In this document: positions 1,894 to 13,309 of the stretch, in pieces
Position numbering within the stretch: position 1 is the stretch's first letter
How the letters are laid out: the number at the start of each line of letters is the position of its first letter
From: Candidatus Brocadiaceae bacterium
Lineage (GTDB): Bacteria; Planctomycetota; Brocadiia; SM23-32
Direction of reading: 5' to 3'
DNA length: 13,451 nucleotides
Assembly: GCA_003567495.1 (NCBI GenBank)
Contig: PWZK01000002.1
Coordinates: forward strand, 1-13,451
Notes under the pieces: generated by a model
Database searches by the model: none
Told to the model about the DNA's origin: nothing
The model's input: only the letters and a program-made list of their open reading frames with translations
Position numbers and translations under genes: made by a program

Positions 1894-2325
1894 ATGCGCG
1901 TGCCTTTTTTTATCGTAATATGGTTTGCAATCTTCACGGCCTGGCTGTGGATAATGTACCGGGTTGAAAGGCAGTTCCGTTACACCGGCAGGACCGGTAC
2001 GCTGCTGTCGTTGAGCTTTTATAGCGCTGGAGTGGCAGGCGTCCTGATTTTAATCGGAAGCCGTAAACGCTCGCCTTTGCTTGCCAGATGGGTGGAATAT
2101 GTCATTGAAAGCAAACCCATCGAACAAGTCGGTGGTATTGTTTTGGGCAGCAAGAAGGTGACGCTGTTAAGGTACAGGGTGAGAGACTTCCTGGACGGCT
2201 TGCGCAGAAAGCCGCGTGGAGGGGATGAGTTGGGTATAATGCTTGACGATGAGGAGCCGGACATTACGATTAAAGATGATTACGCAGACATAATGATTGA
2301 CGATGATCCCGAAGACCGGCCTTGA
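1894..2325 (+). CDS. Small membrane protein of unknown function with acidic tail
   Basis: This encodes 143 residues that I do not recognise. Two hydrophobic helices are clear: residues 3-21, rich in Trp/Phe/Ile, and residues 36-55. A short basic loop (RVERQFRYTGR) joins them. A soluble C-terminal half of about 88 residues follows. Its last ~30 residues are strongly acidic, with a loose internal repetition of DITIKDD and DIMIDDD. The predicted form is an inner-membrane hairpin with a cytoplasmic tail. The ATG at 1894 follows a G-rich stretch (GGGGGGCGG, about 6 nt upstream) that can act as a weak ribosome site. The next gene starts 28 bp after the stop, so the two are probably co-transcribed and may act together. 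No enzymatic motif is visible. Confidence 0.72.
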   Translation: MRVPFFIVIWFAIFTAWLWIMYRVERQFRYTGRTGTLLSLSFYSAGVAGVLILIGSRKRSPLLARWVEYVIESKPIEQVGGIVLGSKKVTLLRYRVRDFLDGLRRKPRGGDELGIMLDDEEPDITIKDDYADIMIDDDPEDRP

Positions 2326-2341
2326 TTTTGCGGCTATTTTG

Positions 2342-2347
2342 GGAGGT
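2342..2347 (+). promoter_or_regulatory. Strong ribosome binding site that sets the next start
   Basis: GGAGGT lies 6 nt before the ATG at 2354. It is the best Shine-Dalgarno match in the window. The longer open frame from 2297 has no comparable site and would overlap the upstream gene by 29 bp, so the start at 2354 is preferred. Confidence 0.75.
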
Positions 2348-2353
2348 TTTCTT

Positions 2354-3076
2354 ATGGGCTACAGACTGGTTGATTTTCTTGTTTTTTTCCCCCTTTTTAT
2401 AATCATGCCCGTTGCCTGGCGCCGGAATCTTTTCGGATGTGCCATGCTGTTGGGGCGCTCTTTTTTTGCATTTTTGCTTTCCATGTGGCTTTTTACCCCG
2501 CTTGCACGCATTTCTTTCGGCGCAATAGAGGGTGTTCCATTGCCCTACTGGCAGGCCACATGGTTTTTTGTGCTCTGGGTAGTGGTATGGGCTCTCTTGC
2601 CCTTTGCAGTATTCAGGTTTACCAGGCCCGTTTCAGGCAACCTGAAGTTTGCCTGGAGCCGGCCGGGCAAGATACTTTCAGGTCTCCTTGCTTCCTGGTT
2701 TGCGATCAGCGCTTTAGCAGCCTTTTTATTCATGATACCCGAGGTCGAGGGGATGTACCTTATAAATGAGACATCCCCTTTTTTTCGCACAGAAAGGCGC
2801 GCCGAGCGGCTATACAGCAATTTTACCCTTACGAAGCCCGATACTTTGCTGACGGCACGAAAGGAAGCCGCCGCCGAATGGGTCTTTCAGAGGTTGCGGA
2901 GAGGGGAAATTGAGGACTTGCCCGAAGCCGATCATTTATCGGATTATTTCTGGGGCAGATACAGAAATCCCTGGGCGACGCAGAGATATGAAAAGCGGCG
3001 GTTGGAACTTCGCCGCGCGATAAAAGAAGGGCTTTCGGCGCGGGCTTTGGAAAAAGTTCCGGAGGGAGAGGATTAA
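2354..3076 (+). CDS. Multi-pass membrane protein, possibly CvpA-like
   Basis: With the start at 2354 this encodes 240 residues with four predicted membrane helices, at about residues 6-22, 26-48, 64-88 and 107-129. A soluble, charged C-terminal segment of ~110 residues follows, rich in Arg/Glu (RRAERL, EKRRLELRRAIKEG). The N-terminal pattern, a hydrophobic VDFLVFFPLF helix, then a short basic turn, then a long Gly/Leu/Phe helix, recalls the CvpA family. That is a resemblance by eye only and could be wrong. It follows the small membrane protein by 28 bp and likely shares its transcript. Its stop codon overlaps the stop of the convergent acyl ligase gene through the palindrome TTAA. No catalytic motif is visible. 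Confidence 0.75.
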   Translation: MGYRLVDFLVFFPLFIIMPVAWRRNLFGCAMLLGRSFFAFLLSMWLFTPLARISFGAIEGVPLPYWQATWFFVLWVVVWALLPFAVFRFTRPVSGNLKFAWSRPGKILSGLLASWFAISALAAFLFMIPEVEGMYLINETSPFFRTERRAERLYSNFTLTKPDTLLTARKEAAAEWVFQRLRRGEIEDLPEADHLSDYFWGRYRNPWATQRYEKRRLELRRAIKEGLSARALEKVPEGED

Positions 3077-4533
3077 CGTCGGAGCAGTTTTCCGCTGGCG
3101 GTTTTTGGAAGCTTATCAGCGAACGTAAAATCTTTCGGCACGCTGTACGAAGGCAGAGCCGAGTAGCAGTAGCGTCGCAACCGGCGGAGAGCTTCCGTCT
3201 TGTTCGCTTTACCACGCGAGTTGAGGACTATAGTTGCCACCGGTATCTGGCCGTAGACCGGATGCTCATTTCCGCAGACGAGCGACTCCCCCACTGCAGG
3301 ATGTGCGTCAAGTAATTCTTCAACTTCTTCCGGGAACACTTTCATTCCGGCGCAGATTATGACGTTTTTTTTCCGGCCGATAATCTTCAGGTTGCCGCCG
3401 GGGGCAATAAACCCGATATCGCCGGTTCTGAACCATCCGTCTTCCAGAACTTCCTCTCGAAACCGGAGCGGGGAGAGATAGGCGTCAAAAACGCCTCTGC
3501 CGCGAACGAGCAGTTCGCCGGCCCCGTCTTTATCCGGATTTTCGATGCGCAGCTCGTAGGCGGGCAGGATTTTGCCTACGGAGCCGATAGATTTTTCAGA
3601 AGGCGCCAGGTTAATAAAAGGAAGACCCACTTCAATTATTCCGTATGCTTCCGCGGGATAAAACCCGAACTTGCCGGCGAAAGCATGTGCGGTGTCGGAG
3701 GGGAGCTTCATGGCCGTTGAAATTGCCAGCCTTACGTTTCCAAGCGAGGCGGGTGCTACTCTCTCGTCGGTTACGAGCAGGTGGTAGTGGAGGGGTGATG
3801 CGTAGATGAGGGTTATCTCGCCCTCCATGGCCGCATCCCGGACGGAAACCGGAAAGTTGCGGTGTCCTACGACGATGGTCGCGCCTTTTCGAAGAAACAG
3901 CAGAATCGAGACTACGAAATGGTGGCTCATCGACAGCACCCACAGAACCCGGTCGTTTTTGTCGATTCCGAGGGCCTCGTTTGCCGCCTCAGTTCGTTCG
4001 TAGATTGTTCTGTGGGAGAGCATCACGCCCTTGCTGGCACCGGTTGTGCCTGAGGAAAAGCGGATAAATGCGGGCCGTAGCGAGCGGATTTTTTCCGGGA
4101 GCGGTCCGGCGCAGCTACGCGCGCGCCAGGTGAATTTTTTCCCGAAAATCTGAATGTTTAATGGTTCGTCGTTCGGATCGGGCGGGATCGTGCCGGTTTC
4201 AAACAACATGCCGTCGACATCGATCCGATCGATCAGGCGCTGCAACTCCGACGACGGCAGTGATATATCGACGGGCACTGCGGCGGCCCCGCATTCCAGC
4301 AGCGCGAGGGTGCCGGCGATGTATGCTGCGCCGTCGTTGCAGCAAAAAGCTATGCGCGTGCCCGAACCCGCGCCGTGTTTTTGCAGTTCATGCCGCAGGA
4401 GCTTTACTTCTTTAAGGAGGCGGCCGTAGGAAACAACCCGCCCGCCTTCGATCACCGCCGGCCTGCCTGGTTCGGATGCGTTGGCATGGCGTATGTCATT
4501 AACAATATTTATTTCTGTTTTGTAATCTGTCAT
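3073..4533 (-). CDS. AMP-forming acyl-CoA/acyl-ACP ligase (ANL superfamily)
   Basis: This encodes 486 residues, full length for an adenylate-forming acyl ligase that activates a carboxylic acid as acyl-AMP and passes it to CoA or a carrier-protein thiol. The phosphate-binding loop SSGTTGASKGV is at residues 160-170, the A5-like motif is YGIIEVG, and the ATP-ribose Asp is in GWFRTGDIGF. The hinge region IGRKKNVI follows, and the C-terminal catalytic Lys lies in PKTASGK (K482). Both subdomains are therefore complete. Its ATG follows the acyltransferase stop with no spacer (TAAATG), which implies translational coupling. In aryl-polyene and related clusters such ligases load an aromatic or fatty starter on an ACP, and the two ACPs in this operon fit that use. 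The substrate cannot be read from sequence. It is the last gene of the operon and overlaps the convergent gene by 4 bp. Confidence 0.92.
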   Translation of the reverse strand: MTDYKTEINIVNDIRHANASEPGRPAVIEGGRVVSYGRLLKEVKLLRHELQKHGAGSGTRIAFCCNDGAAYIAGTLALLECGAAAVPVDISLPSSELQRLIDRIDVDGMLFETGTIPPDPNDEPLNIQIFGKKFTWRARSCAGPLPEKIRSLRPAFIRFSSGTTGASKGVMLSHRTIYERTEAANEALGIDKNDRVLWVLSMSHHFVVSILLFLRKGATIVVGHRNFPVSVRDAAMEGEITLIYASPLHYHLLVTDERVAPASLGNVRLAISTAMKLPSDTAHAFAGKFGFYPAEAYGIIEVGLPFINLAPSEKSIGSVGKILPAYELRIENPDKDGAGELLVRGRGVFDAYLSPLRFREEVLEDGWFRTGDIGFIAPGGNLKIIGRKKNVIICAGMKVFPEEVEELLDAHPAVGESLVCGNEHPVYGQIPVATIVLNSRGKANKTEALRRLRRYCYSALPSYSVPKDFTFADKLPKTASGKLLRR

Positions 4534-5859
4534 TTATAACAGAAGTTTTTCTTTTATTTTGTCTGCAAGCGCACGGGCTTCTTCTTCCGGTATAAGGCCT
4601 TCTAAGTGGGATATGACGAGGTTGAGCCTGTTTTGAAAGAAATTAAAGAAAAGTCCCAGACCGGGCGGAACCGGCACGTGAGGTGTGTGTATCAGATTTT
4701 TCACACCGGCGTCGAGGAAGCTGGAGGAGCTGAATCCCGACTCTTTAAGGCAGGCAAAGTAGTTCGTGGCGACTTTTCCTTTTACCGGGATTTTTGACAG
4801 CAGTCGCATAACCGGCAGGGGAGCTATACGCGTAAGCATGCCGGCGTGATAGATATCATCCGGCAGGTTTTCCTTGATCTGCGAGTATAATTGATTCTGA
4901 AGGTTTCGCGTTAGCTCATCCCTGAATGCGGCAAGCCCCACGGGTATCTGGAAGAAAACGAATGAGATGTGATTGAAAAACAGTTTTTCCCAGATTTCAT
5001 CCGGCGTGCGCCGCACCACCGACACCGGCACCACGTAGTTCGTGTCGCCGCAGCCGCGATGCTCTATCAGGTTGTGCAGAGGTTCCATGACATATGCGAG
5101 CAGCGACGGCAGAGCGAGGGCGAAACCTCCGGATGCGGCGTTTAATTTTTCCCTTATCAGGCCGGTCTCCTCTTCGGAGAAACAAATTATACGGAAATGT
5201 GTGCTGCGGTTTCCTGAATGGGGTTTTACGGGCAGAGCGGCCAGGCCCTCGCGCGAGAGCTTCAGTTGCATGCGGTTCGTATTACGCCCGCCTTTGAAGC
5301 GGCGGCTCCATTGGTCCAGATGGTGCGATTCGGTAAGGTTTATCCGGTTAATCACCTCGTTTTCCGTTTCGCGGTCGAATTTTTCAATCAGTTCCAGGAA
5401 CGTTTCGGCGCCGAACGCATCGAGCAGGCGGTGGTCGAAGTGCATGGCCAGGAAGGAGCGGCCGGCTTGGGAGTTCAGTATCAGAAATCGGAGGTGCTCG
5501 CTGTTGTTTTCAAACCGCTGGTTGACATGAGCCTTTAAAACAGAAAGCGCTTCGCAGAAGTTGTCGTTTTTTATCTCTCTGACGCTTAGCGGCACGCGGT
5601 GCGGAGGGCGGCTGTTGACTTTCCAGTAAGGGCACAGGTTCCAACCCCTGGCCACGCGCCCGTATATAACGGGTAGCGCCCGGGCCAGGCGGTCGAGCGC
5701 TTCACGCAGCCTGCCGGGCGCCAGGGGCGTTTCGGTTTCCAGTATTATCTGGGATGAATTGCCATGCCCGCCGGCGGCTTTTGTCATTGAATCCAGGGTG
5801 TTTACCACCCAGTCTATGCCGGTCAGGTAGCGTTTTTGTAGGGGTTTTTTGGTATGCAT
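4534..5859 (-). CDS. Condensation-domain/acyltransferase-like protein
   Basis: This encodes 441 residues resembling the chloramphenicol-acetyltransferase/NRPS-condensation fold, which includes free-standing acyltransferases. The N-terminal part has the usual pattern of an early LTGIDW segment and a strand-helix region (residues 38-70). The active-site loop reads HFDHRLLDAFG at residues 140-150. It keeps the second His (H143) and the Asp (D147) of the HHxxxDG motif, but the first His is Asp and the Gly is Ala. Later segments (NYVVPVSVVRR, SHLEGLIPEEEA) also fit the fold. A likely role is moving an acyl chain from a carrier protein or CoA to an alcohol or amine acceptor. The ligase gene follows with no gap. 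The start is preceded on its own strand by a run of nine C and has no good ribosome site. The acceptor is unknown. Confidence 0.75.
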   Translation of the reverse strand: MHTKKPLQKRYLTGIDWVVNTLDSMTKAAGGHGNSSQIILETETPLAPGRLREALDRLARALPVIYGRVARGWNLCPYWKVNSRPPHRVPLSVREIKNDNFCEALSVLKAHVNQRFENNSEHLRFLILNSQAGRSFLAMHFDHRLLDAFGAETFLELIEKFDRETENEVINRINLTESHHLDQWSRRFKGGRNTNRMQLKLSREGLAALPVKPHSGNRSTHFRIICFSEEETGLIREKLNAASGGFALALPSLLAYVMEPLHNLIEHRGCGDTNYVVPVSVVRRTPDEIWEKLFFNHISFVFFQIPVGLAAFRDELTRNLQNQLYSQIKENLPDDIYHAGMLTRIAPLPVMRLLSKIPVKGKVATNYFACLKESGFSSSSFLDAGVKNLIHTPHVPVPPGLGLFFNFFQNRLNLVISHLEGLIPEEEARALADKIKEKLLL

Positions 5860-5863
5860 TGTC

Positions 5864-5872
5864 GGGGGGGGG
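5864..5872. repeat. Nine-G homopolymer next to a start codon
   Basis: Nine consecutive G on the plus strand (C on the coding strand) lie 4 bp upstream of the acyltransferase ATG, where a ribosome site would be expected. Tracts of this length are prone to slippage. Phase-variable spacing is possible, but this could equally be a chance or assembly-sensitive run. Confidence 0.7.
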
Positions 5873-6042
5873 AAGACATATATTCAGAGTTCCGGAAGTG
5901 GTTATTGGGTTTGAACCACCTTAACGTTTCGCGAAAAAGTCACTAACGGCCCTTTTTTGCGATGTGCTTGACATCGCTGGCGAGAAAACAAGAAGATACC
6001 CTTCCGTGCATCGTGCCATTTATTCTCCAATATAACCGAAGT

Positions 6043-6074
6043 CGCTATCGGGATCGGGATCGCTATCGGGATCG
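6043..6074. repeat. Short tandem repeat of CGCTATCGGGATC units
   Basis: The block CGCTATCGGGATCG at 6043-6056 recurs at 6061-6074 with an 18-bp period. Inside it are hexamer steps of ATCGGG and ATCGCT. It is simple-sequence DNA with no coding sense in the gap, sitting about 190 bp upstream of the acyltransferase start. Confidence 0.7.
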
Positions 6075-6153
6075 AATAAAAATGGTCTCATGGCTTTTTC
6101 CCGGAGATCAGGATATGTGACATTCGGCTAACCCGCATTTTTCACAAAGCAAC

Positions 6154-6189
6154 TAATTCTTTTTCAAGACTTCGCTTGAAAAAGAATTA
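6154..6189. terminator. Perfect 15-bp hairpin, possible terminator or processing site
   Basis: TAATTCTTTTTCAAG (6154-6168) and CTTGAAAAAGAATTA (6175-6189) are perfectly complementary around the 6-nt loop ACTTCG. The stem lies 120 bp downstream of the ACP stop on the minus strand, inside the operon gap. There is no T-run after the stem on either strand, and the stem is AT-rich, so a standard intrinsic terminator is not proven. It could attenuate or stabilise the upstream mRNA. Confidence 0.5.
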
Positions 6190-6309
6190 ATAAAACGACC
6201 AAGACAACGGCTACGACTGAACGGCACGACACCATATTTTAGTACATCGACAGTTGTGGTTGATGTCAGGACATAGGCTTTAGCATGACGCGCCGTTGTT
6301 GCTGGATAT

Positions 6310-6561
6310 TTATTTTTTCATGGCATTTTTAATCGCCTCTGCAAGCGATGCCGCATCCTGTAGCGAACGGGCGTCGAGTCCCGATTCCATAAGTCTTATC
6401 CCGTATTCTTTCTCGATAAAAATCAAGAGCTCGATCAGGCGGATTGAGTCTATGCCCAGCGATTCGAGCGAGCTGTCGGGGCTTACGGCTCCTTCGTCAA
6501 GTCCCAGAATCGTGGCTATTTCATTGACCAGTGCGTCTTCAATGTCTTTTTTAGTTACCAT
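6310..6561 (-). CDS. Acyl carrier protein (downstream copy)
   Basis: This encodes 83 residues with the size and helix pattern of a type II acyl carrier protein. The phosphopantetheine site is GIDSIRL with the acceptor Ser at residue 39, preceded by DSSLESL as in typical carrier proteins. It is acidic overall with a basic C-terminal end (KNAMKK). It holds a growing or finished acyl chain as a thioester. It starts 15 bp after the ketosynthase-like gene, so it is co-transcribed with it. Its sequence around the Ser differs clearly from the other ACP of this operon (GLDSLDG). The two probably serve different steps or partners, as paired ACPs do in aryl-polyene clusters. Confidence 0.92.
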   Translation of the reverse strand: MVTKKDIEDALVNEIATILGLDEGAVSPDSSLESLGIDSIRLIELLIFIEKEYGIRLMESGLDARSLQDAASLAEAIKNAMKK

Positions 6562-6576
6562 TGGATTTTGTTTTTA

Positions 6577-7641
6577 TTACCGGTATGTTTTATCGATTCT
6601 TATGGTTCTTTTGTGGCCTTCTTTATCCAGTTTTATGCAGTCTATAGTCTCCGCGGCCTTTTGATATCCTTTGCCACAGTGTTTTATGTCCCGTTCTCCG
6701 GCGTTCGGCTGGGAAGCGAAGCGCCGACCGCTTCGGACCATCATGGCGGCTATGGCGCACTGAAAAGCGTTGCCGGTCATCATGCTGCCAAAGAAGGGGG
6801 TATAGTTTGCCACGGACGCGGAGGCCGAGGCGACTGGCAGGTATCCGCTTTCCGGACCCGAAAGGCCCTCTGCGTCCAGGATAGTTATATCCGGTTCGGG
6901 CCCGGCGGCGTTTACCGCCGTTATAAACGGGCCCTCGGCGTTTTCGTCGGGACGGGTAAGAGCGAAAAAAACGGCGCCTTCCCCGGGCACGGCGGACGGA
7001 TTATCGCTGAATGCAACAGGGCTCGGGCGTCCGTCTGCCGGCACATCAGCCATGCGGCTGCATACATGCAGCATTACCTCTCCGAGTTCTTCGACGGCGC
7101 CGGCAAGTACGGCGTCGCAGCGTCGCCGGGCAAGCATACATTCCGCGACCGTCAGTGCGTGATTAAAAGCGAAATCAAAATCGGTAAGCGTTTGTACCGG
7201 CCCGTGTGTCCGGAGCCGGGTGGTGATATAGCCGGCTGCAGCGTTATGAACGGAGTGTGAAAAGTCGGTAGGCGACACCGAAGCGTCGCCGAAATCGAGT
7301 ATCCCGTTGAGAAACTTGAAGGTGCGCACGTGTGGCCCCAGTCCGGTGGCCACCAGAACGCCCGTTCGGTCCGGCGAAACATTTTCAAGCCCGCTTTTAT
7401 GCCAGGCGTCGCAGGCCGCGATAGTCGCCATCTTGCTCGTACGGTCGGCGCGGCGCATGTTTTTCAGAACGGTTTTATCCTTCAGAACTTCGTCGGGAAC
7501 GGTGAAAGCGGGCACGGGGTGTTCTATGCCGGGGACGGTCACGCGGCCGGGGGGGCGCCAGGGGCCTTCCATCGCTTTCTCAAGCGCTCCGGCGCCTCTG
7601 CCATGTGTGCTCACCATGCCGATTGAATGGATTTGTATCAT
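6577..7641 (-). CDS. Catalytically degenerate beta-ketoacyl synthase-like protein (chain-length-factor type)
   Basis: From the ATG at 7641 this encodes 354 residues of thiolase fold. The segment SPTDFSHSVHNAAAGY (residues 123-138) is the hallmark of the 'ketoacyl-synt_2' type seen in aryl-polyene clusters. Ungapped alignment with the neighbouring ketosynthase over AGxxDE puts Asp (within TDFDFAF, residues 153-159) where the catalytic Cys should be. The HGTxTxxND region is replaced by DAEGL and the second His motif by FFGSMMTG. It should not condense chains itself; a structural or chain-length partner for the adjacent ketosynthase is the likely role. A longer frame to 7737 exists but would overlap the ketosynthase by 65 bp. 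The start at 7641 leaves a 31-bp spacer and begins the conserved IQIHSIGMVS strand. The spacer is itself a repeat copy (7641-7670). Confidence 0.85.
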   Translation of the reverse strand: MIQIHSIGMVSTHGRGAGALEKAMEGPWRPPGRVTVPGIEHPVPAFTVPDEVLKDKTVLKNMRRADRTSKMATIAACDAWHKSGLENVSPDRTGVLVATGLGPHVRTFKFLNGILDFGDASVSPTDFSHSVHNAAAGYITTRLRTHGPVQTLTDFDFAFNHALTVAECMLARRRCDAVLAGAVEELGEVMLHVCSRMADVPADGRPSPVAFSDNPSAVPGEGAVFFALTRPDENAEGPFITAVNAAGPEPDITILDAEGLSGPESGYLPVASASASVANYTPFFGSMMTGNAFQCAIAAMMVRSGRRFASQPNAGERDIKHCGKGYQKAAETIDCIKLDKEGHKRTIRIDKTYR

Positions 7642-7670
7642 ATCCCGTATATTTTTTAAACCAACGATAG
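7641..7670. repeat. Partial copy of the 1788-1817 repeat, between the two ketosynthase genes
   Basis: This 30-bp stretch aligns without gaps to 1788-1817 with 26 identities. Both begin TATCCCG and end CCAACGATAG. It fills almost exactly the 31-bp spacer between the ketosynthase stop and the next ATG, and its first base is the first base of that ATG. It is therefore in the ribosome-binding region of the downstream gene. The right half of the element is absent. Confidence 0.6.
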
Positions 7671-7672
7671 AA

Positions 7673-8854
7673 TTATTTCTTGCAAAACACCAGGGCGGCG
7701 TTACTGCCGCCGAATGCGAGCGACGAGGAGAGAGCACCGCGTGCGTTCACGTTCATTTTTCCGGTTACGGGCGGCACCGGTATAGCCGGGTCCGGTTCGG
7801 TGAATCCCGCATTGCCGGGTATCCAGCCCTCTTTCAGGTTCAATGCTGTAAAAACCGCCTCCAGGGCGCCTGCGGCGCCGAGCGTGTGACCGGTCAGCCC
7901 CTTGGTGGAAAAATACCGGACCTCGTCGCCAAACATTGTCTTCAGTGCGGCGCCTTCCACCTGGTCGTTGTCAGGTGTGGCCGTTCCGTGTGCATTTACA
8001 AAACCTATGTCCCGGGGCCGAAGCGACGCGTCGGCCAGGGCGTTTTTTATTGCGAGTTTTAGCCCCAGTCCCTCGGGATGGGGGGCGGTAAGATGGTGCG
8101 CATCACACGATGACGCATAGCCGGCAAGCCGCAGGTTGCTTTCGGATCCGCGCAGACGGGCCGATTGTTCGGTTTCGAGTATTAAGATTCCCGCCCCCTC
8201 GCCCAGGTTGAGCCCGTCACGGTTTCTGTCGAAGGGTCGGCACGGAGTGTGGCTCATTATTCCGAGGGAGTTAAACCCGCACAGCGGCACCCGGTTGAGT
8301 TCGTCCGCTCCGCCTGCGACAGCCACATCACAGAGTCCGGCCCGGAGCCAGCACAGCGCCGTTCCTATGGCGTCGGCTCCCGAAGAACAGGCGTTTACGA
8401 CGGTGCTTCGCGGCCCTTGGCAGGCGAAGGCGGCTGCCGCGACGGCGGCCAGGTTGCCGCTAAGAAAATCCTTGACGGGCTGCAGGTCGGGTCGGCCGCT
8501 CTCGCGGTATTGTCTGTAGAAGGGCAGGTTGTTTAGCTGACATGCGACGGTAGTTCCCAGGCATACACCTATTCTGATGCCGGAAACCAGGTGCGGGTTG
8601 CCCGCTTCCGCCAGTGCTTCACGGGCGGCATGCAGGGTGAGTTCTGCGGTCCGCGAGGTCGGCCGGGCCTTTGAAGTGGTCGCCTTCTGAAAGCGCCGGG
8701 CCTCGAATACAGGGCGGTCAACCTCCGTTTCAAAAAGCGTTGTCGGCTCCGGTTTTCTTTTGCCGGAATCCAGCGTTCTGAGGGTTTCAGACAGATTTTC
8801 TCCGGCGGCCGACACGGCACCCAGTCCCGTGATCAGTATTTTTCGTTCAGACAT
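7673..8854 (-). CDS. Beta-ketoacyl-[ACP] synthase, FabF type
   Basis: With the ATG at 8854 this encodes 393 residues, close to FabF length. It catalyses decarboxylative Claisen condensation of malonyl-ACP with an acyl thioester. The full Cys-His-His triad is visible: C156 in VVNACSSGAD, H289 in FVNAHGTATPDND and H323 in KGLTGHTLGAAGA. The C-terminal LAFGGSNAALVF loop is also present. The chosen start opens with ERKILITGLGAVSAAG, the first strand of the fold. A longer frame to 8947 only translates a 9-bp tandem repeat and is rejected. No clear ribosome site precedes the ATG. It lies between its ACP (upstream) and the dead ketosynthase partner (31 bp downstream), matching the paired KS/CLF layout of type II systems. 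Confidence 0.95.
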   Translation of the reverse strand: MSERKILITGLGAVSAAGENLSETLRTLDSGKRKPEPTTLFETEVDRPVFEARRFQKATTSKARPTSRTAELTLHAAREALAEAGNPHLVSGIRIGVCLGTTVACQLNNLPFYRQYRESGRPDLQPVKDFLSGNLAAVAAAAFACQGPRSTVVNACSSGADAIGTALCWLRAGLCDVAVAGGADELNRVPLCGFNSLGIMSHTPCRPFDRNRDGLNLGEGAGILILETEQSARLRGSESNLRLAGYASSCDAHHLTAPHPEGLGLKLAIKNALADASLRPRDIGFVNAHGTATPDNDQVEGAALKTMFGDEVRYFSTKGLTGHTLGAAGALEAVFTALNLKEGWIPGNAGFTEPDPAIPVPPVTGKMNVNARGALSSSLAFGGSNAALVFCKK

Positions 8855-8870
8855 GGCGTTTTGGGGGGAT

Positions 8871-8924
8871 TCATAGGACTCATAGAACTCATGGGGCTTA
8901 TAGGACGTATAGGACTCATAGGAC
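8871..8924. repeat. 9-bp tandem repeat, six units (TCATAGGAC)
   Basis: Six consecutive 9-bp units follow the consensus TCATAGGAC: TCATAGGAC, TCATAGAAC, TCATGGGGC, TTATAGGAC, GTATAGGAC, TCATAGGAC. Decay continues into 8925-8933. The tract starts 17 bp upstream of the ketosynthase ATG, in the spacer after the ACP gene. The period is a multiple of three, so several frames read through it as three-residue repeats. This explains spurious open frames on both strands. Confidence 0.85.
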
Positions 8925-8983
8925 CTATACCCGGCTATATAGAGCACATCGAGCCCGCTTGCCAGCTATGGCCGTTATCTCGC

Positions 8984-9262
8984 TCAGGAAAATTCGCCCG
9001 CGTTTTTAACGACGTAATCGGCGAGCGTGTTGATGGACTGGAAGATTTCTTTTCCTTTCTGCATATCTTTAACATCCAGTCCGTAATTGCGCTGCAGCAT
9101 AACGACCACTTCCACGCCGTCGAGCGAGTCGAGCCCGACGCCGTCTTCTTCAAACAGCGGCTCGTCGTCACCGATCTCCTGAGGCTCGATATCTTCAAGC
9201 GACAGGCTTTCAACCAGCAAATCTTTCAGTTCTTTTTTTATCTCTTCCAGGTTCTTTTTCAA
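8984..9262 (-). CDS. Acyl carrier protein (upstream copy)
   Basis: This encodes 92 residues with a typical carrier-protein pattern and the phosphopantetheine site GLDSLDGVEV (acceptor Ser at residue 46). It is preceded by an unusually acidic segment, DDEPLFEEDGVG. It carries acyl intermediates for the ketosynthase pair. The start codon is TTG at 9262, preceded 9 nt upstream by AAGGA. No in-frame ATG gives a better start, and the N-terminal helix KNLEEIKKELKDLL begins right there. The 129-bp spacer to the ketosynthase contains the 9-bp tandem repeat. The motif GLDSLDG and the acidic loop set it apart from the second ACP of the operon. This ACP type recalls those next to FabF-like enzymes in unusual-lipid clusters. 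Confidence 0.92.
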   Translation of the reverse strand: MKKNLEEIKKELKDLLVESLSLEDIEPQEIGDDEPLFEEDGVGLDSLDGVEVVVMLQRNYGLDVKDMQKGKEIFQSINTLADYVVKNAGEFS

Positions 9263-9428
9263 GGTGTTTTGTCCTTGTCAAAAATAAGGTTACTTTGTAG
9301 CCGTGCTGATTGTACAGCTAAAAGACATTTAATTCAAGTTAATTGTGAGTTGTTTGCGTAAGTTTCCCAGGCTAGTAATGAAACGGCCTTTCGGGTCTGA
9401 CGACAAAGCCTGTAGCGACATTAAGCGC

Positions 9429-10604
9429 CTAATTTCTCATTTCAGATTCCGGATTGTCCGGCCTGGGTTGTTTGCGTTCCAGTATCTTAGCCGTGCAGAA
9501 GATGATCAGCGCGCAAATGCTTGCGAGTGCGGGCGCCACTACCAGCGAACCTACACACCAGTCGAAAAATCGCTGTAGCGGTTCCTTGCCCAGCTGTCTT
9601 ATCGATGCCTGAGTGATGACATGGCCGTTACGCATGTAGTAGCCGAAAGCGATACATATTCCGGGCACCAGCGGCGGCATGCAGATGTTCTGGATAGAAA
9701 GCGCCATTATTCTGTTCAGGCGCAGCCGCATTGTCACAAAAAGTACCGTGATCATATGGAGACTGATCAGCGGCAAAGCGCCGAGAAAGACGCCGGTCCA
9801 GGCAGCGGCGGCCAGTCCGCGCGGAGAAGCGTTTTCTCCCAGCAGCCTTCTGAGCACTCTTGTGGGATGTCTGAAAAGTTCTGTTGGAGAAAATTCGCGC
9901 GGCACCAGTCTTTTGAACGGCCACGGGATCATCCGTCGTCCTATAAGCCGACTGTGTGTGAGTGAGATGCGCAGATTATCTGCCAGCGGGCGGAATCCCG
10001 AAACCCTTTCTTCAGGGCCATGGTAACGCACCTTTACCGGAATCGATTTAAGCTTAAGCCCGGCCCATGCGGCGCGTGCAAGGACTTCGATTTCGAAGTC
10101 GTAGCGGCGGCATTTCAGGGGTAATTTTTTTATATGCCGCACGGGGTAGGCGCGGAACCCGCTTTGCGTGTCGCGTACCGGCCGGCCCGTTTCGAGTCTG
10201 ACCCAGAAATCCGAGAATCGGCGCCCGAATCGGCTCTTTCCGGGCATCCGGCCCACTACCTTTTCCCGGGCCCCTATGATGATGGTATCTTCTCTAAGTT
10301 CGGGGATGAACCGGAGAAGATCTTCAGGAAAATGCTGCCCGTCGCCGTCGATTGTAATGGCGAAGCGCGCGCCGTGGCGAGCGGCGAAATTGAACCCGCT
10401 CTTAAGCGCAGCTCCCTTGCCGCGGTTTTCCCGGTGTCGCAGCACGTTGATATCGGAATCCGCAAAGATCTCCTGCAAATCGGCATCAGTGCTGCCGTCG
10501 TCAACGACAAGAACATTCGGCAGGTGGCTGCGGCATTCCCGTGCTACCGTCCCGACGGTGCCGGCGTTGTTGTAAACCGGTATAATGCACCATATGTTAT
10601 CCAT
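9429..10604 (-). CDS. Family 2 glycosyltransferase fused to DUF2062-like membrane domain
   Basis: This encodes 391 residues in two domains. Residues 1-225 are a GT-A glycosyltransferase of the dolichyl/polyprenyl-phosphate sugar synthase type: start IIPVYNN, VVDDGSTD (33-40), metal-binding DGD in TIDGDGQH (84-91), and DTQSGFRAYP (145-154), the acceptor-side motif of that family. Residues ~245-385 are a DUF2062-like region with at least two hydrophobic stretches (GVFLGALPLISLHMITVLFV and a last helix near 350-375) and the conserved LNRIMALSIQN. The protein should transfer a sugar from a nucleotide sugar at the membrane. Inside a KS/ACP operon it probably glycosylates the lipid product or a carrier lipid. 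It is separated by 166 bp from the ACP and 114 bp from the radical SAM gene, the latter gap with a hairpin. Confidence 0.88.
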   Translation of the reverse strand: MDNIWCIIPVYNNAGTVGTVARECRSHLPNVLVVDDGSTDADLQEIFADSDINVLRHRENRGKGAALKSGFNFAARHGARFAITIDGDGQHFPEDLLRFIPELREDTIIIGAREKVVGRMPGKSRFGRRFSDFWVRLETGRPVRDTQSGFRAYPVRHIKKLPLKCRRYDFEIEVLARAAWAGLKLKSIPVKVRYHGPEERVSGFRPLADNLRISLTHSRLIGRRMIPWPFKRLVPREFSPTELFRHPTRVLRRLLGENASPRGLAAAAWTGVFLGALPLISLHMITVLFVTMRLRLNRIMALSIQNICMPPLVPGICIAFGYYMRNGHVITQASIRQLGKEPLQRFFDWCVGSLVVAPALASICALIIFCTAKILERKQPRPDNPESEMRN

Positions 10605-10653
10605 TCGCAGTTATGTCGTCCCTTCAGAACTTTTTTCTTGTACGTCACCCGGC

Positions 10654-10701
10654 CCTATGGCTTCGCTTCGGCCCCGTTCGGGGCCTGCGCTTCGCCATAG
10701 G
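10654..10701. repeat. Palindromic hairpin between radical SAM and glycosyltransferase genes
   Basis: An outer stem CCTATGGC/GCCATAGG (10654-10661 with 10694-10701) and an inner stem GGCCCC/GGGGCC (10670-10675 with 10680-10685, loop GTTC) are both perfect. They are separated by an 8-by-8 internal loop that carries CGCTTC in both arms. It lies in the 114-bp spacer within the operon. There is no T-run, so a repeat unit of REP type or an mRNA processing/stability hairpin is more likely than a terminator. Confidence 0.6.
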
Positions 10702-10718
10702 CTATAACATATCGCGCT

Positions 10719-12053
10719 TTAAGCGCCCAGCAGATCCCACAGCGCTCCCGAATGGCCCAGCTTGTGGAGCAGCTGGAGTTTATCGTCAAGCATGTCCGGC
10801 GGGAAAAGCACGTGTCTGAGCGGCTTGAACGCTTCTGTCAGCGTTTTTTCCAGCCAATCCCGGTCCAGGCCCGGCGAGATGTAATACACCGGTTCGAGCA
10901 GGTCGTTTTTTTCCGAGACTACATTTTCACCGAGTGCGATTTTGTGCAGATTGGTATCGGGCAGAATTCTGATGCCCATGAACACGAATGCCGCCGTGCA
11001 TCTGAGGTTTTTGATATTCGATATGCCTTCGGCCACGGTTTCCCGCGTTTCTTGGGGGCCTCCGAACATGAAATAGTGAGCGGTTGCGATGCCCGCGTCT
11101 CTGAACATGTCGTTTGCACTTACCACATCGTCCCAGTTAAATGATTTTCTCTGGCCGCGCAGCGTCCTGTCGCACGCTGCATCCGAACCCAGCTCGGCCG
11201 CCTGCAGCCCTGTCTGTTTCATCAGCCCCACATTTTCGCGGGTGATGCCCGAAGGCTTAAAAAAAGCGGACCACCTGATATTGACATTTTTTTCTTTCAT
11301 TTCCCGGAGTATGGAAAGATAGGTTTCTTCATCGTCATTGAAAACGGAGTCGGTGAAAAACAGGTAACTTGCGTTATGCTTTTTTTCCAAAGTCCGGATA
11401 TCGCTTACCACGTCTGCCGGCTCGCGCGCCCGGATTTTTGTACCTTCCAGAGCGGGATAGGAACAGTAAACGCATTTAAGCGGACAGCCTCGTTTGCTCT
11501 GAACCGAGGCGACGCTCCCTTTTTCAAGGTAGTTTGCTACGAGCTTTTTGTCATAGAGTGCGGAGGGTATTTCGGGCGGCGAAAGCCATCCGTCTGCACG
11601 CATAATTGTGCCGCTTTCAGGCCAGCCGTTGTTTTCGCCGGCCTCTATCAGTCTGACAAAAATTTTCTCGCCTTCACCCACTATGCCGAAATCGGCGCCT
11701 GTTACGCGCATTATCTGTTCTGGCAGAATGGAGAACCCCGGGCCGCCCAGCACTATTTTTGCGCTGCTGTGGCGCCTTATACATTCAGCAATATCCACCA
11801 CACGGTCGATATAGCGCTCTTCATGCAGCATGTTTACGTTGTCTATGTTGCGCACGGAGATGCCGGCAAGCTCCGGCTGTTCCCGGGATATGGCAGCCGC
11901 CAGTGCCCGGGCGGGGTCTTTTTCTTGCATGACGTCGAATATGACCGCCTCATGTCCGGCGTTTTCAGCCGCAGCCGCGATCATGCTCAGGCCGAGCGGA
12001 TACACCGGGTAGGGCGACGTGGCGGTGTTGGCTGAGATCAAAATTGTTTTCAT
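10719..12053 (-). CDS. B12-binding-type radical SAM protein (second of pair)
   Basis: This encodes 444 residues. Residues 1-~140 are a Rossmann-like cobalamin-binding-type domain (ILISANT at the N-terminus, GISVRN, VLGGPGFS, DFGIVGEGE). The canonical DxHxxG cobalamin ligand motif is not visible, as in many members. The radical SAM core follows with CPLKCVYC (Cys190, 194, 197), the CxxxCxxC site that binds the 4Fe-4S cluster and SAM, and later MFGGPQET typical of the core barrel. Such enzymes methylate unactivated carbons or rearrange/cyclise carbon skeletons. Members occur in hopanoid and proposed ladderane lipid clusters. Its ATG overlaps the stop of the upstream radical SAM gene (ATGA), showing coupled translation. 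The substrate is presumably an acyl chain on one of the ACPs, which is inference. Confidence 0.88.
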   Translation of the reverse strand: MKTILISANTATSPYPVYPLGLSMIAAAAENAGHEAVIFDVMQEKDPARALAAAISREQPELAGISVRNIDNVNMLHEERYIDRVVDIAECIRRHSSAKIVLGGPGFSILPEQIMRVTGADFGIVGEGEKIFVRLIEAGENNGWPESGTIMRADGWLSPPEIPSALYDKKLVANYLEKGSVASVQSKRGCPLKCVYCSYPALEGTKIRAREPADVVSDIRTLEKKHNASYLFFTDSVFNDDEETYLSILREMKEKNVNIRWSAFFKPSGITRENVGLMKQTGLQAAELGSDAACDRTLRGQRKSFNWDDVVSANDMFRDAGIATAHYFMFGGPQETRETVAEGISNIKNLRCTAAFVFMGIRILPDTNLHKIALGENVVSEKNDLLEPVYYISPGLDRDWLEKTLTEAFKPLRHVLFPPDMLDDKLQLLHKLGHSGALWDLLGA

Positions 12054-13309
12054 GGTTTATCGCGTCCCCACCTGCGTGTTCTGTTAAGTTTTATTCTCCT
12101 GAACGTGCCGTCCTCTTTTTCTCTTTTTATAACATCGACGTAAAGTTTGGCCATTTTAATCTCTATGCTGCAGTCGTGATAGAAGGTATTCCAGGCGTAT
12201 TGGTTGAGTTCGTTTAGCTTTTCCACGCTCAATTGTGCGGGCTGAAAAACCGTTTCTCCGCACGTGTAGCGCGCCCAGTCGTTATGAAGAATGCGCCCTT
12301 GCTGTTGAAGCTCTTCTCGCAGCGGCGTGCCGGGGAAAGGGGTCATTATGGTGAACTCGGCCAGGTCAAGTTCAAGTTCGAGCAAAAAATCCACCATGCG
12401 TTTGATATAATCTTCATCGTGTTTATCTAGTCCAAGCAGTATGGTGCCTTCCACCCCTATGCCGCGTTCTTTATATCGGCGGATACGCTCCGCTATAACC
12501 TCGGACATATCCACTATTGCCTGGTACACGTACCAGCATCCCGCCCGGGCGGCAAGGTCGAGTATTTCGTCGTCGTCTTTTATGGGGTGCGATATCCATT
12601 TTTTCTTCAGGGGGATCAGCGCTCTGAAAAGTTCTTTTTCCCAGTCATCGTCCTGCGCCAGCGAGTTATCGACGAAGAACAGGCGGTTGTTATCTATCCC
12701 GGCGACTTCTTCGACGACATTTTCTATGGGTCGCGGCCTGAAGCATCTGCCGCCCAGGTATGGCGTGCAGCACGGGAAACAGTTGAAGCGGCAGCCGCGC
12801 GAGGCATGCACCAGATCGACCATCTGAACGCCCCGGAAGTTGTAGAGTTCGCGTTGCAATATGTCGCGCCTGGCCGGTTTGATAAGCGCGGGGTCCGGGT
12901 TGTTCCTGAGGAAATCGTATACCGGTTTCAATTGTCCTTTCCGTGCATCTTCGATTACCGATTCCATGCGACCTTCCGCTTCGCCGAGAAAAACGCTGTC
13001 GGCATGCCGGAGCGTTTCTTCGGGATGCAGCATTGTGCCTATTCCGCCGAACATTACGGGCATTTCCATCTCTCTGAACCTGTCTGCAATCTGCCAGCCT
13101 CGCGGCATCTGGCATGTAAGCATGCAGGAAATGGCTACCAGGTCGGCATCCGTGTCGTAATTTATTTCCTGCACGTGCTCATCGCAGAATGATACTTCCA
13201 CATCCGGCGGAAGTGCTGCGGCAAAACAGACCGGACCGTGCGGCGGCAGGTGAAATTCGGGCTGGTTCGGCAGCTTCGGCCATTTTGGATAGATCAGTTC
13301 TATTTTCAT
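12050..13309 (-). CDS. B12-binding-type radical SAM protein (first of pair)
   Basis: This encodes 419 residues and is the first operon gene visible. The N-terminal ~125 residues form a B12-binding-type domain (IELIYPKWP, LVAISCMLT, VMFGGIGTMLHPEE, FLGEAEG) without an evident DxHxxG His. The radical SAM core carries CRFNCFPC (Cys173, 177, 180) with an extra adjacent Cys181. It continues with TILLGLDKHDEDYIKR and MTPFPGTPL, a C-terminal barrel pattern common to this subgroup. It shares the architecture of the following radical SAM protein but differs widely in sequence, so the pair is not a recent duplication. The two are translationally coupled. No good ribosome site precedes the ATG at 13309. 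A role in modifying the lipid chain is inferred from the neighbours only. Confidence 0.88.
   Translation of the reverse strand: MKIELIYPKWPKLPNQPEFHLPPHGPVCFAAALPPDVEVSFCDEHVQEINYDTDADLVAISCMLTCQMPRGWQIADRFREMEMPVMFGGIGTMLHPEETLRHADSVFLGEAEGRMESVIEDARKGQLKPVYDFLRNNPDPALIKPARRDILQRELYNFRGVQMVDLVHASRGCRFNCFPCCTPYLGGRCFRPRPIENVVEEVAGIDNNRLFFVDNSLAQDDDWEKELFRALIPLKKKWISHPIKDDDEILDLAARAGCWYVYQAIVDMSEVIAERIRRYKERGIGVEGTILLGLDKHDEDYIKRMVDFLLELELDLAEFTIMTPFPGTPLREELQQQGRILHNDWARYTCGETVFQPAQLSVEKLNELNQYAWNTFYHDCSIEIKMAKLYVDVIKREKEDGTFRRIKLNRTRRWGRDKP

Follow-up and report, generated by a model that had tools for sequence, protein, structure and literature searches.

What would a bacterium make with a ketosynthase, a partner of it that has lost its catalytic cysteine, two acyl carrier proteins (ACPs) and two B12-binding radical S-adenosylmethionine (SAM) enzymes, encoded side by side? 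The question is raised by contig PWZK01000002.1 of a Candidatus Brocadiaceae bacterium, which was analysed over its entire length of 13,451 bases (contig C1, hereafter the window); the source genome comprises 2.16 Mb in 387 contigs and is 82% complete. On balance, we favour the view that the window is the downstream part, and a second contig of the same genome, C241, the upstream part, of one biosynthetic locus that joins machinery resembling that for aryl polyenes and flexirubins to a module of radical enzymes, and that makes a chain which these enzymes would modify. The product is most likely an envelope lipid whose polyene acyl chain has been modified by radical enzymes. What sets the locus apart is that a synthase of aryl-polyene type is coupled to radical enzymes of ladderane type, among them a second, conserved B12 enzyme.

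Nine open reading frames (ORFs) fill the minus strand of the window from 3073 to 13309:

12050..13309, minus strand: RS2, B12-binding radical SAM protein of a family without an NCBIfam name of its own (PF02310, CxxxCxxC)
10719..12053, minus strand: RS1, B12-binding radical SAM protein of TIGR04072 (rSAM_ladder_B12), 586.1 bits against a cut-off of 360
9429..10604, minus strand: GT2-DUF2062, family 2 glycosyltransferase fused to DUF2062 (PF00535, 60 bits; PF09835, 42 bits)
8984..9262, minus strand: ACP1, aryl-polyene-type acyl carrier protein (PRK09184, 70.8 bits; GLDSL motif)
7673..8854, minus strand: KS, beta-ketoacyl-ACP synthase predicted to be active from its catalytic residues; the ORF extends to 8947
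6577..7641, minus strand: CLF-like, ketosynthase partner without the catalytic Cys (Asp instead), named after chain length factors (CLFs); the ORF extends to 7737
6310..6561, minus strand: ACP2, second acyl carrier protein (PF00550, 45 bits; GIDSI motif)
6152..6191, minus strand: A+T-rich hairpin of 17 pairs, found by pattern scan in the gap between ACP2 and CND, a possible terminator or relic
4534..5859, minus strand: CND, likely a condensation-like acyltransferase, by remote family likeness
3073..4533, minus strand: LIG, AMP-forming acyl ligase (PF00501, 176 bits; PF13193, 65 bits)

The earlier note had described nine minus-strand genes of these families over this interval, and the ORF listing, Pfam, NCBIfam and residue checks bear out that content. 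The nine are 9 of about 24 genes of the locus, and KS and CLF-like most likely start inside their ORFs.

The full locus is seen in G001, a genome of the same genus, in which a contig of 35,015 bases carries both halves as one run in one direction. The order is a B12 radical SAM protein (RS3), FabG, a CrtI-like oxidase, KSb, ACP3, PlsC, a PaaK-type ligase, a SPASM radical SAM protein with an ApeP-like domain, LolA, a resistance-nodulation-division (RND) exporter of the MMPL family, a domain-less protein of 230 amino acids (aa), a FabA-like dehydratase, a thioesterase, KSc, a second domain-less protein, RS2, RS1, a beta-lactamase-family protein, GT2, ACP1, KS, CLF, ACP2 and the condensation-like gene. 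Contig C241 of the source genome (G000), 19,221 bases long, runs from RS3 through the protein preceding RS2 in the gene order of G001, and the combined locus comes to about 26 kb and 24 genes. Both parts are also present, on two contigs, in G002 of the same genus. The earlier note had let its reading depend on these genes staying together in related genomes, and they do: the run is kept in G001 and partly, up to contig ends, in G002, and RS2, RS1, a GT2/DUF2062-like ORF, ACP1, KS and CLF also stand together in two genomes of one genus in another class (G093 and G257), with an RND gene further on. The GT2/DUF2062-like ORF of G093 is a 27% BLAST match to GT2, in which Pfam shows DUF2062 and a lipid A acyltransferase domain and no GT2. 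A chance neighbourhood of genes was considered and dropped, given this conserved synteny and the shared longest-contig values reported below.

Several details of the locus vary or stand alone. A PF00144 beta-lactamase-family protein lies between RS1 and GT2 in G001 (L036:18137-19417), and the window is without it. RS3, which heads the locus (C241, L096:3373-4836), is nearest to HpnJ (165 bits) and BchE (146 bits), far under their cut-offs; it is 67% identical to RS3 of G001, and a partial RS3 is found in G002. At L096:10838-12313 of C241 a single protein combines a SPASM radical SAM part with an ApeP-like dehydratase domain, a tail that is absent from its homolog in the anammox (anaerobic ammonium-oxidizing) family. 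In another genome of the host family (G005 C11, L049), genes for RS1-like, condensation-like, ligase, KS, CLF and SPASM proteins form a rearranged locus; its RS1-like protein scores 327 bits, under the TIGR04072 cut-off, and RS2 has no match there at 1e-20.

The radical half of the proposal starts from RS1. A comparison with ladderane-type clusters had been advised in the earlier note, and RS1 falls above the curated cut-off of TIGR04072, 'lipid biosynthesis B12-binding/radical SAM protein' (585.7 bits in the genome search), as it does for PF02310 (73.5 bits) and PF04055 (59.4 bits); its other best named models are below cut-off. Controls in the TIGR04072 genome search match in 14 of 14 genomes and exceed the cut-off in none. 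The literature search found no paper naming TIGR04072 or its product name. RS2 scores 36.8 bits with PF02310 (cut-off 32.1) and 24.2 bits with PF04055, under the cut-off of 29.5, and the CxxxCxxC motif is present in 120/120 listed relatives of RS1 and likewise of RS2, the query included. In a quick tree (L068, a short frame, skipped; L060, a wrong frame on a very long branch, ignored), the window protein sits in a branch of 16 rows (support 100), apart from seven anammox-family rows (99) and not within their branch; this branch includes proteins named Omnitrophica, Desulfobacterales, Nitrospirae and Planctomycetota.

RS2 and RS1 travel together. RS2 lies directly before RS1 in the window, G001, G002, G093 and G257. 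The lists of RS2 and RS1 relatives (the best 120 of 7113 and the best 120 of 2549, respectively) have 17 longest-contig values in common; in the control, with one list shifted by 1-100 bases either way, the mean was 0.73 and the maximum 3. This indirect evidence points to a wide sharing of contigs by the two genes. For the condensation-like gene the test gives a weaker signal, with 7 values in common with RS2, 8 in common with RS1 and a control maximum of 5 in either case. The identity of RS2 within the genus is 83%, compared with 69-72% for RS1, 76-80% for GT2, 64-66% for KS, 60% for CLF and 62% for the condensation-like protein; ACP1 (84-90%) is the sole protein above it. Between phyla RS2 is about 70% identical and RS1 about 55%; Desulfosarcina sp. 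BuS5 encodes an RS2 of 71% identity, and the mean column identity of RS2 is 79% in an alignment of 20 of the 120 listed proteins, query included. Among 294 sampled genomes of the phylum, four have an RS2 match of at least 47% identity. That the cross-phylum conservation of RS2 exceeds that of RS1 could reflect transfer or strong constraint.

The synthase half is built on KS and its partner. Ten loci supplied 10 ketosynthases and 9 partners for an alignment, in which the window KS keeps Cys163, His298, Lys328, His333, Glu342 and Phe392; all of these are kept in 10/10 ketosynthases except Glu342 (9/10). The catalytic Cys is lost in all nine partners, the window CLF-like protein having Asp, and the His298 column is a gap in three anammox-family partners. 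When 36 ketosynthase-like proteins were placed in a tree, the 11 dead partners, including four from the anammox family, fell on one side of a branch (100/99) that is present in 100% of 200 bootstrap trees, a grouping to which attraction among fast-evolving rows may contribute. Both ACPs have the carrier-motif serine, and ACP1 passes the PRK09184 cut-off of 70 bits narrowly. The glycosyltransferase part of GT2-DUF2062, with DGD at residue 86, has its nearest model among the polyprenyl-phosphate glycosyltransferases, at 83 bits where the cut-off is 370; the glycosylation and the changed carbon skeleton that the earlier note suggested are conjectures about the product.

CND (441 aa) has no Pfam match on its own. 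The profile of its family, aligned from 41 proteins (the query among them) out of 120 condensation-like relatives listed, matches a peptide synthetase chain (E 3.8e-6); Pfam Condensation (PF00668) is found in 10/41 members (best 6.3e-6) and 2-oxoacid_dh in 11/41 (best 0.005), and HRxxDA occurs in 102 of the 120 relatives listed. It is reasonable, from this remote likeness, to regard CND as a putative condensation-like acyltransferase.

Aryl polyenes provide a model for this half. Established parts of their machinery are the KS-CLF pair, a second KS and two ACPs (PMC8358021), export by RND and LolA proteins has been proposed, and the E. coli cluster apeA-R has 18 genes (PMC8253772). By function, a match that leaves orthology unproven, 14 of these 18 are found across the window and C241: CLF, lysophospholipid acyltransferase, two ACPs, acyl ligase, two dehydratase-like domains, glycosyltransferase, thioesterase, LolA, RND exporter, KS, ketoreductase and an additional KS. 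The aryl-polyene lipoprotein, methyltransferase, pyrophosphatase and DUF3261 functions were not found over the window and C241. The studied locus shares with apeA-R the KS/CLF pair, an aryl-polyene-type ACP, ligase, thioesterase, LolA, RND, acyltransferase and glycosyltransferase, and has domains that resemble ApeP and ApeI at mostly sub-cut-off scores; it differs in adding at least four radical enzymes, a CrtI-like oxidase and a condensation-like protein, and in that ApeA, ApeB, ApeG and DUF3261 were not found in it. The comparison with aryl-polyene clusters, also advised in the earlier note, holds up in that ACP1, KS, a FlxY-like ligase, LolA and ApeP/ApeI-like domains point to such machinery, mostly with scores below cut-off.

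Several parts of the locus also have kin in the anammox ladderane locus (kuste3335-3352; PMC2649909). TIGR04072 is above its cut-off in 14 of the 147 genomes searched, and 13 of these loci (all except G037) were read over a longer stretch. A KS-like ORF is present in 11/13; the others are G096 and G061, whose contig starts 1.6 kb before RS1. The comparison used G015, whose genome is one contig of 4.4 Mb and shows two hydrazine synthase matches; it comes from a family that we take to be that of the anammox bacteria from such matches and from gene content. The neighbours of RS1 in G015 are a polysaccharide deacetylase, KS, a dead partner, a methyltransferase, a further KS, a PaaK-type ligase, a SPASM radical SAM protein, FabG, ACP, FabZ, a second methyltransferase, MMPL, a CrtI-like oxidase and GT2, a set that agrees with the kuste33xx genes described in PMC2649909. 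The best models for the G015 ligase and ACP are FlxY (422 of 520) and PRK09184 (60 of 70).

In six anammox-family genomes searched genome-wide (hydrazine synthase matches in G015, G020, G028 and G040, none in G048 and G061), the best match to the C241 SPASM protein lies directly beside RS1 in 6/6 (313-333 bits, the next match 74), and the best match to the C241 ligase adjoins the SPASM match in 6/6, broken by stops in G040 and cut by the contig end in G061. The FlxY/PaaK-type ligase likewise adjoins the SPASM protein in C241. The window's dead partner has its best match at the locus in 4/6, with weak scores (26-33 bits) and others close. The two loci thus have in common TIGR04072, a SPASM protein encoded next to a ligase of the FlxY/PaaK type, KS with a dead partner after it, FabG, ACP, RND, a CrtI-like oxidase and GT2. 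They differ in the branch of RS1, in the presence of two methyltransferases in the anammox locus, with no match to either, the Kuste3347-type or the second, on the window, C241 or the G001 stretch, and in the place of SPASM, which is directly beside RS1 in the anammox locus and 8.7 kb from it in G001. The anammox family has no close RS2. Three of its genomes have a B12 radical SAM protein of 34-39% identity, 10-12 kb upstream of RS1; these proteins fall in another branch of the wider group, and RS2 as an ortholog of an anammox-locus enzyme was rejected.

The dead partner of G015 deserves separate mention. Its residues Ser163, Asp328, Asn333, Asn342 and Ser392 are those published for Kuste3348 (PMC2649909), the sixth comparable position being a gap in the alignment. 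This Kuste3348-type 'FabF' groups with the window CLF-like protein and sits after an active ketosynthase. Residues, position and tree together suggest that one of the altered FabF paralogues, which Rattray et al. in 2009 left unexplained, seeing no polyketide-synthase-like enzymes (PMC2649909), may be a chain length factor. No paper giving that name to a dead FabF paralogue was found, in a search that left out most subscription journals, and priority is unproven.

From this gene content we infer the following order of steps. The ligase would load a starter onto an ACP, and KS/CLF, FabG and the dehydratases would extend it to a polyene. The anaerobic radical module (RS1, RS2, RS3, the SPASM protein with its dehydratase-like domain and the CrtI-like oxidase) would then alter the chain, by closing rings in it, methylating it at carbon or desaturating it. 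The thioesterase and the PlsC-type and condensation-like acyltransferases may release the chain or transfer it to a lipid that GT2-DUF2062 perhaps handles, and the RND/LolA pair would carry that lipid to the outer membrane.

A number of observations weigh against this proposal. C241 and the window do not overlap at their ends, and the link between them is by synteny only; no homolog of LIG was found along the G001 stretch, and no CLF is found in the 0.9 kb between the G002 KS and the contig end. Most aryl-polyene and flexirubin models score below their cut-offs in this genome: the C241 ligase reaches 466 of 520 with FlxY and the window KS 320 of 407 bits with PRK09185, each still the best model for its protein, and LolA2_flexi reaches 93 bits against a cut-off of 125. 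The ApeP-like domain scores 25.7 bits in G000 against a cut-off of 27, and 31.6 in G001; the ApeI-like protein scores 21.0 against 28.5 and passes as FabA-like (32.3 of 23). Aromatic ammonia-lyase was not found in G000, nor in G001, G002, G005 and G015, while G093 has one; none is listed for the E. coli aryl-polyene cluster either (PMC8253772). The KS of the anammox locus in G015 is nearest to FabF (394) and not, as in the studied locus, to the aryl-polyene KS PRK09185, which disfavours a simple aryl-polyene origin of the anammox-locus KS. Finally, ring closure, methylation and desaturation by RS1 and RS2 cannot be told apart from their sequences.

One alternative product is an envelope pigment of the aryl-polyene or flexirubin kind, with the B12 radical SAM proteins acting solely as methylases and forming no new rings. 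Most characterised B12 radical SAM enzymes are methylating (PMC13142503), nearly the whole aryl-polyene set is present, and the locus shows none of the methyltransferases typified by ApeB and Kuste3347; no methyltransferase domain was detected in the scanned window and C241 genes. However, RS1 belongs to a family proposed for ladderane lipids and not to a known methylase family, its other best named models score below cut-off, and the missing ammonia-lyase of G000 counts against such a pigment. Ring closure by a B12 radical SAM enzyme in ladderane formation is a published proposal, and a 2026 preprint on BchE counts a 'ladderane synthase' as one of the few members that do not methylate (PMC13142503). 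We consider the methylated pigment unlikely, while taking it seriously.

Rattray et al. offered another alternative, in which such loci make long-chain polyunsaturated fatty acids or hydrocarbons, desaturated by CrtI-like and radical enzymes. A similar locus occurs in Desulfotalea psychrophila, which produces C31:8 and C31:9 hydrocarbons without ladderanes (PMC2649909), and a CrtI-like oxidase is found within the studied locus. However, KS/CLF with ketoreductase and dehydratase can form double bonds while elongating, and RND, LolA, PlsC and thioesterase better suit an envelope lipid. We regard this alternative as distinctly improbable. The clusters of D. psychrophila, Geobacter and Pelobacter, anaerobes without known ladderanes, have radical SAM, FabF-like, PaaK-type ligase, CrtI-like and membrane proteins in common with the locus; the likeness is one of description, and the available description (PMC2649909) includes neither an RS2-RS1 pair nor a likeness to aryl-polyene clusters. 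A 'ladderane' class, named after the Rattray locus, is also defined in antiSMASH (PMC4489286). Ladderane-type clusters are known outside the anammox bacteria, and in non-anammox phyla of the Cariaco Basin they are expressed, with function unknown (PMC9902471).

Synthesis of true ladderanes by this host, and hence beyond the anammox group, seems very improbable to us. The family assignment of RS1 and the shared ligase-SPASM pair, KS/CLF, RND, CrtI-like oxidase and GT2 speak for it; the position of RS1 outside the anammox branch and the missing methyltransferases speak against it, and ladderanes are reported to be unique to anammox bacteria (PMC4790861). Hydrazine synthase (PF18582) was detected in 0/9 host-family genomes (67-96% complete). 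It is found in 41/73 genomes searched, and some nearly complete anammox-family genomes also show no match. An anammox host was dropped on the host-family result, and the bacterium is probably not anammox.

An enlarged operon for ordinary type II fatty acid synthesis, with radical enzymes serving other pathways, is scarcely credible and was dropped: several ketosynthases are FabF-like, but the dead partner fixed beside KS, the aryl-polyene-type ACP, the export genes and the retention of RS2-RS1 with KS/CLF across classes count against it.

Within the window, the genes of the run overlap or are spaced by at most 170 bases, except for a gap of 450 bases between ACP2 and CND-LIG; because of this gap and its 17-pair hairpin, a single transcript for the nine genes is not established. 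Terminator-like sites as a class are not clearly enriched (21 seen, 15.5 expected by chance, sd 4.2), the promoter and terminator scans of the window were near chance level, and the window yielded no Rfam match at the gathering threshold and no tRNA in a tRNA scan. A 9-bp tandem repeat, GGACTCATA, is present in 6.4 copies at 8867-8924, between ACP1 and the likely KS start, and keeps the frame open, which lengthens the apparent KS ORF by 31 residues. As the frame of these initial residues passes through the repeat, the KS start is most likely 8854 and not 8947. CLF-like most likely starts at 7641 rather than 7737, homologs aligning from 7641. Outside the run, a plus-strand ORF without a domain (2297-3076) is convergent with LIG and overlaps the end of that gene by 4 bases, and an ABC exporter-like gene lies further left on the plus strand (11-1630).

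A wider conjecture, tentative and in our view doubtful, covers the ladderane loci and the studied locus together. In both, an aryl-polyene-type KS/CLF might make an ACP-bound conjugated polyene, in which a TIGR04072 enzyme would close the rings; Kuste3348 would be the chain length factor, and no desaturation of a saturated fatty acid would be needed. In several anaerobic phyla the branch of the window, with RS2-RS1, would make a ring-modified polyene lipid of another kind.

Ladderane biosynthesis is unsolved. The candidate genes date from 2009, and a paper of 2016 reported that expressing them in E. coli had been unsuccessful (PMC4790861). If the altered FabF paralogue is a chain length factor, a KS/CLF pair could supply the missing ladderane polyene. 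A near-complete aryl-polyene-like set together with a radical module, in a family without detected hydrazine synthase, makes this KS/CLF idea testable. The locus thereby gives a concrete, testable idea of ladderane biosynthesis, and it draws attention to RS2 as a strongly conserved companion enzyme.

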